Assembly: GCF_009725995.1 (NCBI RefSeq) | Contig: NZ_RCNS01000003.1 | Location: 1,123,130 to 1,187,129, forward strand | Length of the DNA: 64,000 nucleotides | Direction: 5' to 3' | DNA from: Zobellia laminariae | GTDB lineage: Bacteria > Bacteroidota > Bacteroidia > Flavobacteriales > Flavobacteriaceae | Shown here: positions 1,485-8,263 of the stretch, one piece after another | Layout: the number at the start of each line of letters is the position of its first letter | How positions within the stretch are numbered: the stretch's first letter is position 1 | Notes under the pieces: model-generated | Told to the model about the DNA's origin: nothing | Databases searched by the model: none | Seen by the model: only the letters and a program-made list of their open reading frames with translations | Program-made: the position numbers and the translations under genes

Positions 1485-1515
1485 TTTGTGGTTTTAAAAA
1501 TGATTTCTATATTTG
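1485..1515 (+). promoter_or_regulatory. trp operon promoter (TTTG-19-TATATTTG)
   Basis: TTTG at 1485-1488 and TATATTTG at 1508-1515 are separated by 19 bases, an excellent match to the Bacteroidota -33/-7 consensus (TTTG and TAnnTTTG). Only five bases separate the -7 box from the leader peptide ATG at 1521, so transcription probably starts at or within a few bases of that ATG. Confidence 0.7.
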
Positions 1516-1520
1516 AACCA

Positions 1521-1577
1521 ATGAACAGAAATAACGCAAATACTTGGTGGTGGAACAACTCTCGACAGATATCGTGA
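1521..1577 (+). CDS. trpL: trp operon leader peptide with three Trp codons
   Basis: A short frame ATG...TGA encodes MNRNNANTWWWNNSRQIS (18 aa), with TGG TGG TGG at 1545-1553. Tryptophan is the rarest residue, so three in a row just upstream of trpE is the hallmark of a transcription attenuator leader. The stop codon lies inside the arm (1572-1584) that would form the antiterminator. No Shine-Dalgarno sequence is visible and the promoter places the ATG at or next to the transcript 5' end, so it may be read as a leaderless message. Function is inferred from sequence and placement; the peptide itself probably has no role. Confidence 0.82.
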   Translation: MNRNNANTWWWNNSRQIS

Positions 1578-1633
1578 GCTAAGCATCATTGTAGTAAAAC
1601 TATATAAAGGCTTGTCTTCACGACAAGCCTTTT
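1572..1633 (+). promoter_or_regulatory. trp attenuator: antiterminator and terminator hairpins
   Basis: Terminator: 1606-1616 pairs perfectly (11 bp) with 1622-1632 around the loop TTCAC. Antiterminator: 1572-1584 (TCGTGAGCTAAGC) pairs with 1610-1623 through about 12 pairs with one bulge (1617) and one mismatch, using the left arm and loop of the terminator. The two cannot coexist. A ribosome stalled at 1545-1553 would leave 1572-1584 free; one ending at 1575-1577 would cover it. The U-tract is weak (TTTTGC), so the hairpin may instead, or also, act by shielding the trpE start 20 bases downstream. Confidence 0.78.
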
Positions 1634-1652: not shown

Positions 1653-3050
1653 ATGAAGTACAAATTAAAATCTTATCACAAAAAAATTCTAGCAGATACT
1701 ATTACTCCGGTAAGCGTCTATCTAAAAATTAGAGATCGTTTCCCGAACAGTATTTTGTTAGAAAGTAGCGACTACCATGCGGCGGACAATAGTTTTTCGT
1801 ATATCTGTTGCAACCCTATTGCCTCTATAAAAATAGAGAACGAAACAATCGTTGAAAACTTTCCTGATCAGACTTCCAATGAAACGGAAATCAATTCAGA
1901 TACAGATGTTGTAAAAGTCCTTCATGATTTTAGCAAAAAATTTGAAGCCGAGGAGAGCGATTTTAAATTCATAAACAACGGTATTTTTGGCTACATGGCC
2001 TACGACGCAGTCCGTTACTATGAAGATGTCAAAATCAGCAAAAAAGACAATTCTGTTTCCATTCCTGACATTTATTACGCGGTTTACCAGAATATAATTG
2101 CCATAGACCACCAAAAAAATGAAGCTTATATTTTTGCACATTGCTTCAACACAGAAGAAAACACCACGGAAATTGCGCATATTTTAGATGTACGCACTTT
2201 TGCTTCCTATAAATTTTCTTTAGACGGTGAAGCTACTTCTAACTTAGAAGATGAAGAATATAGAGAACATGTACGATTAGCTAAAAAACACTGCCAACGC
2301 GGCGATGTTTTTCAATTGGTACTATCTCGCCGTTTTTCTCAAGGTTTTAAAGGAGATGAATTTAATGTATACCGAGCGCTACGTTCTGTAAATCCATCAC
2401 CTTATTTATTTTACTTTGATTATGGCGATTTTAAAATTTTTGGAAGCTCTCCTGAAGCACAGCTTATTGTAAAAGATGGTAATGCAGAAATTCATCCTAT
2501 TGCCGGAACTTTTAAACGTACCGGAAATGATGAACAAGATGCCATCTTAGCCAAAGAACTTACGGAAGACGATAAAGAGAATAGCGAGCATGTTATGTTA
2601 GTTGACTTAGCTCGTAACGACTTAAGCCGAAACGGTAGTATGGTGGAGGTCACCAACTACAGGGAGGTGCAGTTCTTCTCTCATGTTATTCATTTGGTAT
2701 CAAAAGTAATGGGCAAAAAGAAAAAGGATATTCCTACCATGAAAGTGGTGGCAGATACTTTTCCTGCAGGTACTTTGAGCGGCGCACCAAAACACATGGC
2801 CATGCAGCTTATTGAAAAGTATGAAAAGACCAGTCGTGGCTACTACGGTGGCGCCATTGGCTTTATGGATTTTGACGGTAATTTTAACCATGCCATTATG
2901 ATACGTACTTTTTTAAGTAAAAATCACCAACTACATTACCAAGCAGGTGCAGGTATTGTTGCCGCATCTGACCCAGAAGACGAACTTCAAGAAACATATA
3001 ATAAATTGGGCGCACTTACCAAAGCTTTGAAAATTGCTGAAACCATATAA
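1653..3050 (+). CDS. trpE: Anthranilate synthase component I
   Basis: Makes anthranilate from chorismate with ammonia supplied by TrpG, the first committed step to tryptophan. The protein is 465 aa from the ATG at 1653; an upstream TTG at 1632 in the same frame lies inside the attenuator stem and is rejected. LLESS at residues 35-39 is the conserved element of the tryptophan feedback site. Catalytic-domain motifs include GDVFQLVLSRRF, GSSPEAQL, PIAGTFKRTG, ELTEDDKENSEHVMLVDLAR and FPAGTLSGAPK. It is the first gene of a seven-gene trp operon and is followed after two bases by trpG. Expected regulation is attenuation plus Trp feedback. Confidence 0.96.
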   Translation: MKYKLKSYHKKILADTITPVSVYLKIRDRFPNSILLESSDYHAADNSFSYICCNPIASIKIENETIVENFPDQTSNETEINSDTDVVKVLHDFSKKFEAEESDFKFINNGIFGYMAYDAVRYYEDVKISKKDNSVSIPDIYYAVYQNIIAIDHQKNEAYIFAHCFNTEENTTEIAHILDVRTFASYKFSLDGEATSNLEDEEYREHVRLAKKHCQRGDVFQLVLSRRFSQGFKGDEFNVYRALRSVNPSPYLFYFDYGDFKIFGSSPEAQLIVKDGNAEIHPIAGTFKRTGNDEQDAILAKELTEDDKENSEHVMLVDLARNDLSRNGSMVEVTNYREVQFFSHVIHLVSKVMGKKKKDIPTMKVVADTFPAGTLSGAPKHMAMQLIEKYEKTSRGYYGGAIGFMDFDGNFNHAIMIRTFLSKNHQLHYQAGAGIVAASDPEDELQETYNKLGALTKALKIAETI

Positions 3051-3052
3051 CC

Positions 3053-3616
3053 ATGAAGAAGATTTTAGTAATAGACAACTACGATAGCTTTACTTATAAT
3101 TTGGTTCATTATTTAGAGGACTTAGATTGTGAGGTTATTGTAAAACGTAACGACCAATTAACCTTGGAAGAGGTTGATGCTTTTGATAAGATTGTTCTTT
3201 CGCCAGGCCCTGGCATCCCAGATGAAGCAGGACTTCTAAAAGAAATCATTGCAAAATACGCTCCTACAAAAAGTATTTTTGGCGTTTGTTTAGGACAACA
3301 GGCCATTTGTGAAGTTTTTGGTGGTTCGCTTATCAATCTAGAAGAAGTTTATCACGGTATTGCTACCGAAATAACAATAACTAAAGACGACCCTAATTTT
3401 GAAGGTTTACCTAAAAAATTACTTGTTGGCCGCTATCATTCATGGGTCGTAGACCCAAATCTACCGGAAAGCTTAGAAGCCACCTCAGTAGATGAAAACG
3501 GTCAAATTATGTCGCTTCGTCATAAAATATATGATGTTTCTGCAGTGCAATTTCATCCGGAATCGGTTTTGACTCCTGAAGGCAAAAAAATTCTTGCCAA
3601 CTGGGTAAAAAACTAA
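3053..3616 (+). CDS. trpG: Anthranilate synthase component II (glutamine amidotransferase)
   Basis: Class I glutamine amidotransferase that hydrolyses glutamine and channels ammonia to TrpE. The 187-aa protein shows the oxyanion strand PGPG (51-54), nucleophile Cys79 in FGVCLGQQA, and the His168/Glu170 pair in QFHPES. It starts two bases after the trpE stop, which suggests translational coupling and a 1:1 subunit ratio. Stand-alone TrpG (not fused to TrpD) is usual in flavobacteria. The close homologue PabA cannot be excluded by sequence alone, but the location in the trp operon makes TrpG the natural call. Confidence 0.95.
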   Translation: MKKILVIDNYDSFTYNLVHYLEDLDCEVIVKRNDQLTLEEVDAFDKIVLSPGPGIPDEAGLLKEIIAKYAPTKSIFGVCLGQQAICEVFGGSLINLEEVYHGIATEITITKDDPNFEGLPKKLLVGRYHSWVVDPNLPESLEATSVDENGQIMSLRHKIYDVSAVQFHPESVLTPEGKKILANWVKN

Positions 3617-3673
3617 ATTAAGAAATCGCACAAAATACACTAAGTAGTATCCCATAGTAGTAAGAACAGTATC

Positions 3674-4669
3674 ATGAAAGAAACATTAAATAAGCTCATC
3701 AACCACGATATTCTTCCAAAAGGAGAAGCAAAACAAGTGTTGGTGAACATTGCAAAAGGAGATTATAATACAAGTCAGATTGCCGCATTTCTAACGGTTT
3801 ATATGATGCGTAGCATTACTATAGATGAATTAGAAGGTTTTCGTGACGCGCTTTTAGAATTATGTTTGGCCGTTGACCTTTCTGAATACGACCCTATTGA
3901 CCTTTGTGGAACTGGTGGTGACGGAAAAGACACGTTCAACATCTCTACCTTAGCCTCATTTGTAACGGCTGGTGCCGGTGTAAATGTTACCAAACATGGT
4001 AATTACGGAGTTTCTTCTAAATGTGGAAGTAGTAATGTGATGGAATTTCTAGGGATTAAGTTCAGTAATGAAGCCGACTTTCTTAGAAAATCTATTGATC
4101 AAGCTGGTATTTGTGTTTTACACGCTCCATTGTTTCACCCAGCTATGAAAAATGTAGGTCCAATTAGAAAAGAACTGGCCGTGAAAACATTTTTCAACAT
4201 GTTGGGGCCAATGGTAAACCCTGCTTTTCCAAAAAACCAAATAGTAGGTGTTTTCAATCTTGAACTTGCCAGAATGTACGGTTACCTTTATCAAAATACA
4301 GATAAGAAATTTACCGTGCTTCATGCATTGGATGGATATGATGAAATATCATTAACAGGAAATACAAAAACTATTTCTAACCATTCAGAAAGTATGCTGA
4401 AACCAGAAGATTTTGGCGTGCAGAAAATAAAACAGTCACAAATTGTTGGAGGTGATTCCATTGAAGACTCGGCACAGATATTCTTGAACGTACTGCAAGG
4501 CCGCGGTACGGAGGCTCAAAACAACGTAGTTTGTGCTAATGCAGGTATTGCTATTGCAACCGTTCAAAACCTAAGTCCAATAGAAGGTTTTGAAAAGGCC
4601 AAAGAATCTTTGTTGGCCGGAAAAGGTTTAAATGCTTTGAGAAAATTACAAGAATTGAGTAAAAACTAA
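3674..4669 (+). CDS. trpD: Anthranilate phosphoribosyltransferase
   Basis: Transfers the phosphoribosyl group of PRPP to anthranilate. The 331-aa protein has the family PRPP-binding loop GTGGDGKDTFN starting at residue 79, then the conserved KHGNYGVSSKCGSSNV stretch and a second conserved element GPIRKELAVKTFFNMLGP. Length is typical. It follows trpG by 57 bases on the same strand and precedes trpC by 22 bases. Nothing odd is seen in the active-site motifs. Confidence 0.96.
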   Translation: MKETLNKLINHDILPKGEAKQVLVNIAKGDYNTSQIAAFLTVYMMRSITIDELEGFRDALLELCLAVDLSEYDPIDLCGTGGDGKDTFNISTLASFVTAGAGVNVTKHGNYGVSSKCGSSNVMEFLGIKFSNEADFLRKSIDQAGICVLHAPLFHPAMKNVGPIRKELAVKTFFNMLGPMVNPAFPKNQIVGVFNLELARMYGYLYQNTDKKFTVLHALDGYDEISLTGNTKTISNHSESMLKPEDFGVQKIKQSQIVGGDSIEDSAQIFLNVLQGRGTEAQNNVVCANAGIAIATVQNLSPIEGFEKAKESLLAGKGLNALRKLQELSKN

Positions 4670-4691
4670 AAGTACTTTCAAAGAAGGAAAC

Positions 4692-5474
4692 ATGAACATT
4701 CTAGATAAAATAGTAGGGGACAAACGCAAAGAAGTAGACTTAAAAAAGTCTCTTATTCCGGTTTCACAATTAGAAAACTCGGTCTTGTTCTCACGTCAAA
4801 CGGTTTCTTTGAGCAATGCGCTTCGCAATAGTAGTTCTGGCATCATTGCGGAACACAAGCGTCGCTCACCATCAAAATCAGAAATTAACCAAGGTCTGAA
4901 TGTTCAAGATGTAGCCTCAGGATATGAAAATGCAGGAGTTTGTGGTATGTCCGTTTTAACTGACGGTAAATATTTTGGTGGTTCTTTAGACGATTTCCTA
5001 TTGGCTCGTGCAGCAGTGCAAATGCCTTTATTACGAAAAGAATTTATTATAGATGAATATCAGCTTCTTGAGGCAAAAGCCCATGGTGCAGATGTTATTC
5101 TTTTAATAGCGGCCATTTTATCCAAAGAACAAATTAAAACGTTTTCAGAATTGGCAAAAAGTCTTGGCTTAGATGTATTATTAGAAGTGCACAATGAGGC
5201 CGAACTATATAAAAGTATTATGCCTAGCCTAGATATGTTGGGTGTAAACAATAGAAATCTAAAAACTTTTGAAGTTAGCTTAGAGACGAGCAAATCGCTT
5301 TCTCAACTAATTCCAGATGAGTTTGTAAAGGTTTCAGAAAGCGGTATCAGCTCAATAGAGGCTATTAAAGATTTGAAGCCTTATGGTTACCAAGGTTTCT
5401 TAATTGGTGAAAATTTTATGAAGACCGATAATCCCGGTGAAAACGCCAAGAAATTTATAAATCAATTGTCGTAA
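4692..5474 (+). CDS. trpC: Indole-3-glycerol phosphate synthase
   Basis: Catalyses ring closure of CdRP to indole-3-glycerol phosphate with loss of CO2. The 260-aa TIM barrel contains IIAEHKRRSPSKSEI with the catalytic lysine at about residue 56, then LLRKEFIIDEYQ, LEVHNE, GVNNRNLKTFEV and VSESGI, all in the usual strand order. It is a stand-alone TrpC, not the TrpCF fusion of E. coli; trpF follows as a separate gene 16 bases later. Confidence 0.96.
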   Translation: MNILDKIVGDKRKEVDLKKSLIPVSQLENSVLFSRQTVSLSNALRNSSSGIIAEHKRRSPSKSEINQGLNVQDVASGYENAGVCGMSVLTDGKYFGGSLDDFLLARAAVQMPLLRKEFIIDEYQLLEAKAHGADVILLIAAILSKEQIKTFSELAKSLGLDVLLEVHNEAELYKSIMPSLDMLGVNNRNLKTFEVSLETSKSLSQLIPDEFVKVSESGISSIEAIKDLKPYGYQGFLIGENFMKTDNPGENAKKFINQLS

Positions 5475-5490
5475 TTGCGACCCAATAGCG

Positions 5491-6183
5491 ATGACTAAAA
5501 TGGACTATCAATACACGACTAAAAAAGAAGGGCCTTCTACCATAGAAAATGCTCCGATTAAATTGAAGGTCTGTGGCATGAAAAAAAATACGGCAGAAAT
5601 TGCCGGCCTAAAACCTGATTACCTGGGATTTATTTTTTGGGACAAATCAAAAAGGCACTTTTCGGGTCCAATGAAACCGATTCCACATACCATCAAGAAA
5701 GTTGGTGTGTTTGTGAATGCCAGTATTGAAACCGTCATTGCTCGTATTCAAGATTATGAGCTTTTACTAGTACAACTGCATGGCTCCGAAAGCCCTGAAT
5801 ATTGTACTGAGCTTAAGCAAAAAGCAAAGCAAGTAAAAATCATTAAAGTATTCTCCATCAAAAATGATTTTAATTTTGATGTTTTGAAACCTTATGAATC
5901 CATATGTGATTTCTATCTTTTTGACACTAAAGGAGAATTACCCGGCGGAAACGGTTACGCTTTTGATTGGGGAGTTTTAAAGGATTACCCGTCTACCAAA
6001 CCCTATTTTCTAAGTGGTGGAATTGGTTTGAATGAAGTTAGCTCCTTAAAGGAGTTCATGAAAAGACCAGAAGCCAAATACTGTCACGCCATTGATGTGA
6101 ACAGTAAGTTTGAAATAGAGCCTGGTCTTAAAGATGCCGAGAAATTAAAGGAGTTTAAAAAAGAAGTTGGCCTAAAACAATAA
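5491..6183 (+). CDS. trpF: Phosphoribosylanthranilate isomerase
   Basis: Amadori rearrangement of PRA to CdRP, the step before TrpC. TIM-barrel motifs are KVCGM (catalytic cysteine), [37 protein letters not shown] and AIDVNS (catalytic Asp). The protein is 230 aa, with roughly 23 extra residues before the first strand compared with compact TrpF proteins; the start could be the ATG at 5491 or at 5500, and both keep most of the extension. Located between trpC and trpB as expected for this order. Confidence 0.95.
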
Positions 6184-6214
6184 TTTATCTGTTGATGCCA
6201 TTTACCTAATACGA

Positions 6215-7405
6215 ATGAATATGAAAACGTATCAAGCGGACGAAAAAGGATATTATGGAGAGTTTGGGGGTGCTTTTATTCCTGAAATGCTCTACCCAAA
6301 CACAGAAGAGCTTAGGCAAAACTATATTCGCATTATGCAAGAACCTTCTTTTAAAGAAGAGTTTGACCAATTGCTAAAAGATTATGTAGGCCGCCCTACT
6401 CCACTCTACTTTGCTGATAGACTCTCAAAAAAATACAATACAAAAATATACCTAAAACGGGAAGACCTTTGTCATACCGGAGCTCACAAGGTGAATAACA
6501 CCATAGGGCAGATTCTTATGGCCAAGAAATTAGGCAAAAACAGAATTATAGCCGAAACGGGTGCTGGCCAACACGGGGTAGCTACGGCAACCGTTTGTGC
6601 ACTTATGGGTATTGAATGTATTGTATACATGGGTGAGATAGATATTGCCAGACAAGCTCCTAACGTAGCCCGCATGAAAATGTTAGGCGCAGAAGTTAGA
6701 CCGGCTCTTTCTGGTAGTAGAACCTTAAAAGATGCCACAAATGAAGCTATTCGCGATTGGATTAATAACCCCGTAGATACACATTATATTATTGGTAGTG
6801 TTGTTGGGCCACATCCTTATCCTGATATGGTAGCGCGGTTTCAATCGGTTATTTCCGAGGAGATCAAATGGCAATTAAAAGAAAAAGAAGGTCGTGAAAA
6901 TCCTGACTATGTAGTAGCGTGTGTAGGTGGTGGAAGTAATGCTGCAGGGGCATATTATCACTATTTAGACAATCCAGATGTTGGTATTATAGCTGTTGAA
7001 GCTGCCGGAAAAGGAATAGATACTGGCGAAAGTGCAGCAACATCTGCCCTAGGTAAAGTGGGTATCATTCACGGTAGCAAAACCTTATTAATGCAGACGG
7101 GTGACGGACAAATTACAGAGCCTTATTCTATTTCTGCAGGATTGGATTATCCTGGTGTTGGTCCTATGCATGCCAATTTATTTACTTCTGGTAGAGGTGA
7201 ATTTATATCTATTACAGATGATGATGCCATGAATGCAGGTTTACTCTTATCTAAAATGGAAGGTATTATTCCTGCTATAGAATCTTCGCATGCACTTGCA
7301 ATTCTTGAGTGCCGAAAATTCAAGCCTGAAGACATTGTGGTCATCAACCTATCTGGTCGTGGTGATAAAGACCTCAACAATTATATTGAATACTTTAATC
7401 TATAA
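6215..7405 (+). CDS. trpB: Tryptophan synthase beta chain
   Basis: PLP enzyme condensing indole with serine. The 396-aa protein carries the PLP lysine at residue 92 in HTGAHKVNN, the phosphate-binding loop [10 protein letters not shown], and the C-terminal SGRGDKD. It is the TrpB1 type that pairs with TrpA. An alternative start is the ATG at 6221 (MKTYQ). Unlike the other junctions of the operon, a 93-base gap separates it from trpA; the gap holds a small non-Trp reading frame (7411-7455) that I do not call a gene. Confidence 0.97.
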
Positions 7406-7498
7406 AATATATGGGGGAAAGTTTCATGAACATGATAATATATGTTCGTAACTAACTTACTCCATCCTATTAAAAAAGGAAAAAACTGATTTGAAACT

Positions 7499-8263
7499 AT
7501 GGCAAATAGAATCAACACAAAATTGAAAGAAGATGGAAAATTGCTTTCTATCTATTTTACGGCAGGATACCCAAAATTGGCTGACACCGTAGAAATCATT
7601 CAACAATTAGAGAAAAACGGAGTAGATATGATTGAAATAGGCCTTCCGTTCAGTGACCCACTGGCAGATGGCCCAACTATTCAAAAAAGCTCTACAGCAG
7701 CGCTTAAAAATGGTATGACTACCGAAATTCTTTTCAATCAATTGAAAGATATTCGGAAATCGGTTTCCATTCCACTTATTATCATGGGATATTTTAATCC
7801 TATGTTTCAATATGGTGTTGAAGCGTTTTGCAAAAAGTGCCAAGAAATTGGTATAGACGGACTTATTATACCCGATTTACCGGTAGATGTTTATCATGAA
7901 GAATATCAAGAGATGTTCGAAAAATACGGACTCATTAACGTATTCTTAATTACACCGCAGACTTCTGACGAACGTATTCGTTTTATAGATTCGGTTTCAA
8001 ACGGATTCATCTATATGGTAAGCTCGGCAAGTGTTACAGGAGCCCAGTCTGGTTTTGGTGACGAACAGCAAACCTATTTTCAACGAATTGCTGACATGAA
8101 GCTAGATAATCCTCAAATAGTTGGTTTTGGCATAAGCAACTCCGAGACTTTTGAGCAAGCAACAAAATCGGCAAAGGGTGCCATCATAGGATCTGCCTTT
8201 ATCAAACATTTAAATGGTCATGGCGTAGACGGAATTTCTGCGTTTACAAAAACTATTAGATAA
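7499..8263 (+). CDS. trpA: Tryptophan synthase alpha chain
   Basis: Cleaves indole-3-glycerol phosphate to indole and glyceraldehyde-3-phosphate and passes indole to TrpB. The 254-aa barrel has the catalytic pair Glu47 and Asp57 in EIGLPFSDPLADGPT, the family stretch IPDLP, and the phosphate-binding ends GFGIS and GAIIGSAFI. Length is slightly shorter than E. coli TrpA but normal for Bacteroidota. It is the last biosynthetic gene of the operon. Confidence 0.96.
   Translation: MANRINTKLKEDGKLLSIYFTAGYPKLADTVEIIQQLEKNGVDMIEIGLPFSDPLADGPTIQKSSTAALKNGMTTEILFNQLKDIRKSVSIPLIIMGYFNPMFQYGVEAFCKKCQEIGIDGLIIPDLPVDVYHEEYQEMFEKYGLINVFLITPQTSDERIRFIDSVSNGFIYMVSSASVTGAQSGFGDEQQTYFQRIADMKLDNPQIVGFGISNSETFEQATKSAKGAIIGSAFIKHLNGHGVDGISAFTKTIR

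Follow-up and report, generated by a model that had tools for sequence, protein, structure and literature searches.

A Bacteroid-trp attenuator ahead of trpEGDCFBA in Zobellia laminariae, with a Trp-codon leader that probably begins at or next to the RNA 5' end

We analysed a 64,000-nucleotide stretch of the Zobellia laminariae genome (the window, whose coordinates are used throughout) and found that the region upstream of its trp operon holds a member of the catalogued RNA family RF01692 (Bacteroid-trp) and not a new kind of element. The element very likely controls trpEGDCFBA as a transcription attenuator, with the leader AUG probably at or next to the RNA 5' end. An earlier note, made from the letters of this DNA, had proposed a ribosome-mediated trp attenuator here, and that proposal is backed by the Rfam match, by the retention of Trp codons in relatives and by covariation between antiterminator and terminator.

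The trp leader and its place in the RF01692 family

The seven proteins encoded by the genes at 1653–8263 all belong to the Pfam families expected of TrpE, G, D, C, F, B and A, and TrpE shares 99% identity with its counterpart in a Zobellia barbeyronii record. The nearest of the genomes compared has 38% of sampled 31-letter words in common with the window. Upstream of the trp leader lie a MarR-family gene and a YceI-like gene (Pfam). The latter is followed by a hairpin and T-run, an arrangement consistent with a separate promoter for the trp leader; this hairpin is also present in a sub-threshold Rfam alignment, and is absent from the output of a pattern scan for terminators. A plasmid search returned nothing for the leader, and its one weak match falls inside trpE. 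The features of the region are as follows.

1437–1473, + strand: hairpin and T-run 3' of the YceI-like gene (CCCTGCA at 1437–1443, TGCAGGG at 1455–1461), seen in the sequence
1485–1515, + strand: Bacteroidota-type housekeeping promoter (−33 TTTG at 1485–1488, 19-nt spacer, −7 box TATATTTG at 1508–1515)
1520–1521, + strand: predicted transcription start, one base before or at the A of the leader AUG, from the rule described for F. johnsoniae
1521–1577, + strand: leader peptide ORF, ATG at 1521, MNRNNANTWWWNNSRQIS, 18 codons, TGA at 1575–1577, read directly
1541–1596, + strand: 1:2 hairpin, in which 1541–1552 pairs with 1584–1596, with an inner helix 1559–1565/1572–1578
1545–1553, + strand: three Trp codons (TGG TGG TGG), the putative sensor, read directly
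1572–1584, + strand: segment 2, the 5' strand of the antiterminator, which overlaps the stop codon of the leader and pairs with 1610–1623
1606–1633, + strand: predicted intrinsic terminator, stem 1606–1616/1622–1632 and a short U-tract
1610–1623, + strand: antiterminator 3' strand, within the terminator 5' arm and loop and pairing with 1572–1584
1653–3050, + strand: trpE, first gene of trpEGDCFBA (1653–8263), by Pfam

Direct reading of the sequence agrees with the positions given in the earlier note for the leader, the TGG codons, the terminator and the antiterminator. The terminator stem consists of 11 perfect pairs, and 1604–1640 folds at −16.0 kcal/mol (z −5.5), a stability reached by 0 of 200 shuffles. 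The antiterminator has 12 pairs, and the fold of 1566–1626, at −16.4 kcal/mol (z −3.4), was likewise equalled in none of 200 shuffles. The U-tract is short, as had been remarked, with five T in the eight bases after GCCT. At least six T are found in these eight bases in 80 of 88 dereplicated relatives, and the window's U-tract is among the eight shortest of the 88. A generic terminator scan called nothing on the + strand; its only call was the same hairpin on the − strand. An in-frame ATG at 1500 would give a longer leader (MISIFEP...), which we rejected because this ATG precedes the −7 box.

The trp attenuator of Escherichia coli comprises Trp codons (two adjacent), a 1:2 pairing, an antiterminator 2:3 and a terminator 3:4. 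The leader region of the window appears to follow the same logic, with a probable 1:2 pairing, and differs in its three adjacent Trp codons, in a stop codon that lies within the antiterminator strand and in the probable lack of a 5' UTR. We envisage that RNA polymerase starts at 1520 or 1521 and that the leader AUG, at or beside the 5' end, would be loaded as on a leaderless mRNA. If Trp-tRNA is plentiful, a ribosome would get to the stop codon and cover 1572–1584, whereupon the terminator helix at 1606–1632 would form and transcription would end before trpE. With Trp-tRNA scarce, a ribosome stalled at 1545–1553 would open the 1:2 hairpin and leave 1572–1584 free to pair with 1610–1623, so that the terminator is blocked and the operon is read. 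If no ribosome loads, the 1:2 hairpin would sequester segment 2 and the terminator would be expected to form.

The earlier note had described a compact, three-segment form of this logic. Single-sequence folds and the Rfam consensus favour four segments instead, with the Trp-codon region pairing with the antiterminator region, and in the window the 1:2 hairpin encloses the antiterminator 5' strand. The fold of 1521–1605 (−14.0 kcal/mol) is unexceptional, with a z of −0.8 and 42 of 200 shuffles as stable. Leader folds of 88 relatives have a median z of −2.2, and in 84 of the 88 at least four of the nine TGG-codon bases pair downstream in single-sequence folds. On the alignment A1 described below, 66.4% of cells in the 1:2 helix are paired, against 63.4% when it is slid by three columns, a count that does not tell the two apart, the alignment being gappy there. 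We take the 1:2 helix as probably real, mainly on the strength of the hairpin that the Rfam consensus shows at this place; it is less secure than the other two helices, and the device is probably of the four-segment form.

The assignment to RF01692 comes from cmscan, which matched window positions 1501–1616 to model positions 1–131 with 52.8 bits, against a gathering cut-off of 49. A score over the cut-off and a position upstream of trp biosynthesis genes are what mark a member of this family, and the element has both. The element in the window and the model share the Trp leader peptide, a hairpin predicted over the Trp codons, the conserved AAAGGCUUGUC and an origin in the Bacteroidota. They differ at both ends. 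The model stops at 1616, in the terminator 5' arm, which is drawn unpaired, and so includes neither terminator nor antiterminator; both were therefore tested separately in the present analysis. At its other end, the first 20 model positions (window 1501–1520) fall on the −7 box region in the Zobellia clade, where the 5' boundary of the family is probably set too far upstream and would cover promoter DNA that is probably not transcribed. At E-values up to 0.001, RF01692 was found in 70 of 149 relatives and in 42 of 395 genomes sampled across the phylum. Other Rfam matches in the window (trpB motif, rnk and others) were discarded as lying under their own cut-offs; several of them fall on the terminator of the preceding gene.

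The earlier note regarded ribosome-mediated attenuation as less documented in this phylum, which understates the record. Bacteroid-trp is listed with its Rfam number in Table 1 of a 2010 screen (PMC2864571), it has been placed upstream of the trp operon of F. psychrophilum (PMC6414381), and a study of that species speaks of strong clues for leader-peptide attenuation before amino-acid operons (PMC9723704).

Conservation and covariation of the attenuator

A leader with two or three adjacent Trp codons and a hairpin downstream is present at all 80 named trpE loci, which are the best 80 of 348 TrpE relatives and so lean towards close kin. The same arrangement was found at 67 of 70 RF01692 loci, the exceptions being L011, L021 and L170, and at 30 of 38 trpE loci without an RF01692 match. 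This amounts to 177 of 188 loci overall, in three groups that overlap in species and with some weak hairpin picks; the automated pick is wrong or weak at L146, L195, L205, L213, L070 and L073. L211 has no leader, and by eye its trpE comes after the end of a trpB-like gene.

The leader itself is strongly constrained. At 84 dereplicated loci with short spacing between −7 box and leader AUG (4–9 nt, see below), it has exactly 18 codons in 73, a run of three TGG in 79 and a run of two in the other 5, and CGTGA occurs at the stop codon in 76. Leader bases 28–30 are invariant, and bases 25–27 and 31–33 at least 90% conserved, in 84 aligned relatives that were all chosen for at least two adjacent TGG.

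Compensatory changes in the helices of relatives, which the earlier note had named among the evidence to seek, were looked for by alignment and by a swap test. Alignment A1 holds 84 of 88 dereplicated loci, L024, L184, L190 and L195 having been omitted by hand. On A1, 97.6% of terminator cells are paired, compared with 17–60% when the helix is slid by one to three columns. Its two-sided changes number seven cells (0 of 500 shuffles) and are limited to two pairs (114 of 500 shuffles). For the antiterminator the paired share is 82.5%, compared with 22–50% when slid, and three of its pairs have two-sided changes (0 of 500 shuffles); its covariation score was matched by 15 of 500 shuffles, and its two-sided cells number four, against up to five in slid versions.

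Because the core is near-invariant in close kin, distant loci give a stronger test. We therefore exchanged segment 2 and terminator among 15 loci hand-picked for divergence, two of which (L197 and L201) are related. Native combinations averaged −13.5 kcal/mol and swapped ones −9.1 kcal/mol, and the native total was reached by 0 of 200,000 permutations. Column ranks were poor for L178 (11th), L150 (9th) and L181 (8th), and the window ranked 4th of 15. The changes can be read directly from the pairs: UCGUGA/UCACGA in most of the 84 loci is replaced by UCGCAA/UUGCGA in L155, by GGAUUCAG/CUGAAUCC in L187 and by GAGAAGC/GCUUCUC in L198. Taken one by one, 116 of 159 loci pair better than they do with a shuffled segment 2, by a margin of over two standard deviations, a comparison in which the weak hairpin picks at L070 and L073 distort two rows. 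We conclude that the mutually exclusive antiterminator and terminator covary, in both the swap test and the pair counts, as is looked for in an attenuator.

The hairpin might instead act on translation of trpE, hiding or freeing its start region with no ending of transcription. This would suit the window, in which the hairpin ends 20 nt upstream of the trpE ATG and the U-tract is short, and mRNA structure is reported to tune initiation in F. johnsoniae (PMC6847099). However, the hairpin does not overlap the trpE start codon, and the six or more T after GCCT in the 80 relatives counted above also weigh against this reading. Measured up to where the TrpE match begins, the start codon itself being unproven, the distance from the end of the hairpin is 19–81 nt in 71 of 78 measured loci and 383–469 nt in 7. 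So variable a distance makes a role in trpE initiation unlikely as a general mode, and the suggestion in the earlier note that the hairpin may also act on translation is, as such, improbable over a range of 19–469 nt. We regard control of translation in place of termination as very improbable, and retain transcription attenuation.

Of the seven loci with the longer distance, the two that were checked by Pfam carry a small ORF with a GIY-YIG domain between attenuator and trpE (L070, 2175–2459; L091, 1535–1945). The gaps of similar size (383–469 nt) in the other five, L033, L080, L081, L084 and L096, look alike by eye.

Hairpins that were kept while the Trp codons were lost would, according to the earlier note, speak against attenuation, and such cases exist in five genomes, each roughly 0.6 Mb in size, that belong to the same order (L204, L209, L212, L215 and L217). 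They have no Trp-codon leader, and retain the promoter box and a terminator-like hairpin. In L204, L212 and L215 the box is followed directly by ATG ATG TAA; L209 has a 10-codon ORF without Trp after the box, and L217 has neither of these. The hairpins of the five are bulged and range from −6.7 to −11.5 kcal/mol, compared with a median of −14.0 in 88 relatives, for which slightly different bounds were used. From their size we infer that the five genomes are those of insect endosymbionts, and we read the persistence of a hairpin after loss of the Trp codons as decay in genomes that have been reduced. A five-codon frame, MVFFN or MVFLN, recurs nearby in at least four of the five.

These genomes indicate that a hairpin can outlast its Trp codons, as would be expected if the leader were a relic whose structure is inherited and whose tryptophan control of the operon has been lost. 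Against this, most of the relatives examined keep the Trp codons, the stop position and both helices, even as the spacer of the promoter and the remaining peptide residues drift. We therefore consider a relic extremely improbable in the window, and a working attenuator the preferred reading.

The promoter and the predicted 5' end of the leader RNA

The Bacteroidota promoter consensus is given as TTTG/TAHHTTTG, and transcription in F. johnsoniae as starting 4 or 5 nt downstream of the −7 box TAHHTTTG (PMC6847099). In the window the leader AUG lies 5 nt past the −7 box. From the box at 1508–1515 and the start rule, which comes from another genus, the 5' end is predicted at 1520 or 1521, and the leader ORF is probably leaderless. 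A sigma-70 promoter scan is uninformative for this phylum.

Short spacing is widespread among the relatives. Across 141 loci with a canonical terminator, the distance from box to AUG is 4–9 nt in 89, 10–12 nt in 9, 14–21 nt in 39 and 30 nt in one, the other three having a relaxed box only. When 133 dereplicated loci are taken and relaxed boxes are counted, the corresponding numbers are 84 (one of them relaxed), 9, 39 and 1. When the 80 named loci are placed on a TrpE tree, 62 count as short (4–9 nt; one via a relaxed box), 16 as long and 2 are unassigned, and two changes of state suffice. The 4–9 nt spacers comprise 54 different sequences. Among the 84 dereplicated short-spacing loci, a TTTG lies 18–22 nt upstream of the −7 box in 58, and 73 have no other in-frame ATG, GTG or TTG ahead of the Trp codons.

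How unusual such spacing is was assessed in the window and in the relatives. A strict box lies 4–8 nt upstream of 7 of the 2252 ATGs in the window, the leader ATG included. The window has 16 ORFs of 120 aa or more for which a strict box lies no farther than 110 nt away; in four of them the box is 4–9 nt before the first ATG (the starts being unrefined), so short spacing is not rare enough to serve as proof. Another 52 ORFs with a strict box were examined at 62 named loci, and in none of them was it closer than 14 nt; these 52 lie mostly at one spacing and are probably one orthologous gene.

Transcription of the attenuator might also begin upstream of the predicted site and yield an ordinary 5' UTR. 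In favour of this, the trp leader of other lineages is mostly 14–21 nt past the box. Leaderless mRNAs are rare in the family, at 5.5% in F. psychrophilum according to one study (PMC9723704), and of the F. johnsoniae transcripts for which a promoter is probable, 87% are reported to have leaders of more than 10 nt (PMC6847099). The short-spacing clade has one exception: at L045 (Pareuzebyella sediminis) the leader AUG (position 2370) lies 30 nt past the −7 box. What weighs against a 5' UTR is that the window's −7 box is perfect and its −33 spacing correct, that a second strict box within 110 nt upstream occurs in just 5 of 84 loci, and that the spacer varies in sequence while its length holds at 4–9 nt. 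We believe an upstream start to be unlikely, and favour one at or beside the leader AUG.

Other amino-acid leaders and leaderless precedents

His-, Ile/Leu/Val- and Phe/Tyr-rich leaders are present in most of 16 Flavobacteriaceae genomes, ahead of hisG (L219–L234), ilvD (L235–L249) and the prephenate dehydratase gene (L251–L266), and many have a terminator-like hairpin before the gene, for example CCCGTTTGAG...CAAACGGG for his. The 16 genomes were hand-picked from 149, 12 with short and 4 with long trp spacing, for comparison of the his, ilv and Phe leaders.

The His-rich leader starts 7–8 nt past a box-like sequence in all 12 short-type genomes and 17–19 nt past it in all four of the long type. 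The his box is perfect in one of the 12 (G064) and matches five of six bases in the others, and a second five-of-six match lies 14 nt before the his-leader ATG in 7 of the 12. Since the his boxes are imperfect and not unique, the his start is uncertain. The Ile/Leu/Val-rich leader starts 4–5 nt past a five-of-six box in 9 of 12 short-type genomes; it is absent in G088 and not clearly readable in G058 and G064. Among the nine, the distances for G026 and G083 come from reading by eye, and a pair of adjacent ATGs gives 2 or 5 nt in G006 and G009. In both long-type genomes where this leader was found, the distance is 10–11 nt. The Phe/Tyr-rich leader starts 18–19 nt past a five-of-six box in all 11 short-type genomes where it was found, which rules out the idea that every amino-acid leader of the short-spacing clade is leaderless.

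A narrower generalization can be put forward tentatively. In the clade, a large group of marine Flavobacteriaceae (Zobellia, Maribacter, Arenibacter, Cellulophaga, Flagellimonas, Eudoraea and Robiginitalea), no more than about 4 nt of RNA, or none, may precede at least the trp, his and ilv sensor ORFs, as against about 5–17 nt in other lineages. The second his matches and the control on window ORFs make this clade-wide reading less probable, and we hold it as a possibility about which we are somewhat doubtful.

Leaderless attenuator peptides have precedents with stated 5' ends, whereas the start in the window is a prediction from the 5-nt spacing between box and AUG. For trpL (rnTrpL) of Sinorhizobium meliloti, the leader AUG is stated, from earlier work, to be the 5' end of the transcript (PMC7298713). 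The two systems are alike in a leaderless trp-attenuator ORF, and differ in phylum and in the 14-aa peptide of S. meliloti, which has functions in trans (PMC7298713). In Streptomyces lividans, trpL1 is described as an 18-aa WWW leader that is leaderless before trpE, and ilvL as leaderless too (PMC8079986). The 18-aa WWW leader is like that of the window; the phylum and promoter are different, and the start is known from RNA-seq (PMC8079986). Among the open-licence papers that our searches listed, we found no report of a leaderless attenuator leader from the Bacteroidota.

The attenuator adds a well-supported member to a catalogued family. If the leaderless reading is true, the Bacteroidota would join the Alphaproteobacteria and Actinobacteria in having leaderless attenuator peptides, as described for those groups (PMC7298713, PMC8079986). 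If the clade-wide reading is true as well, leaderless loading would be a shared attenuation design in bacteria that do not use Shine–Dalgarno sites. The ribosome would engage once the AUG emerges, which would set a race with RNA polymerase over about 110 nt. Two sets of related species would then offer a natural comparison of the same switch, one set having a 5' UTR and the other lacking it, perhaps in several operons, and the Phe leader, with its UTR retained in the same genomes, would be a built-in contrast.
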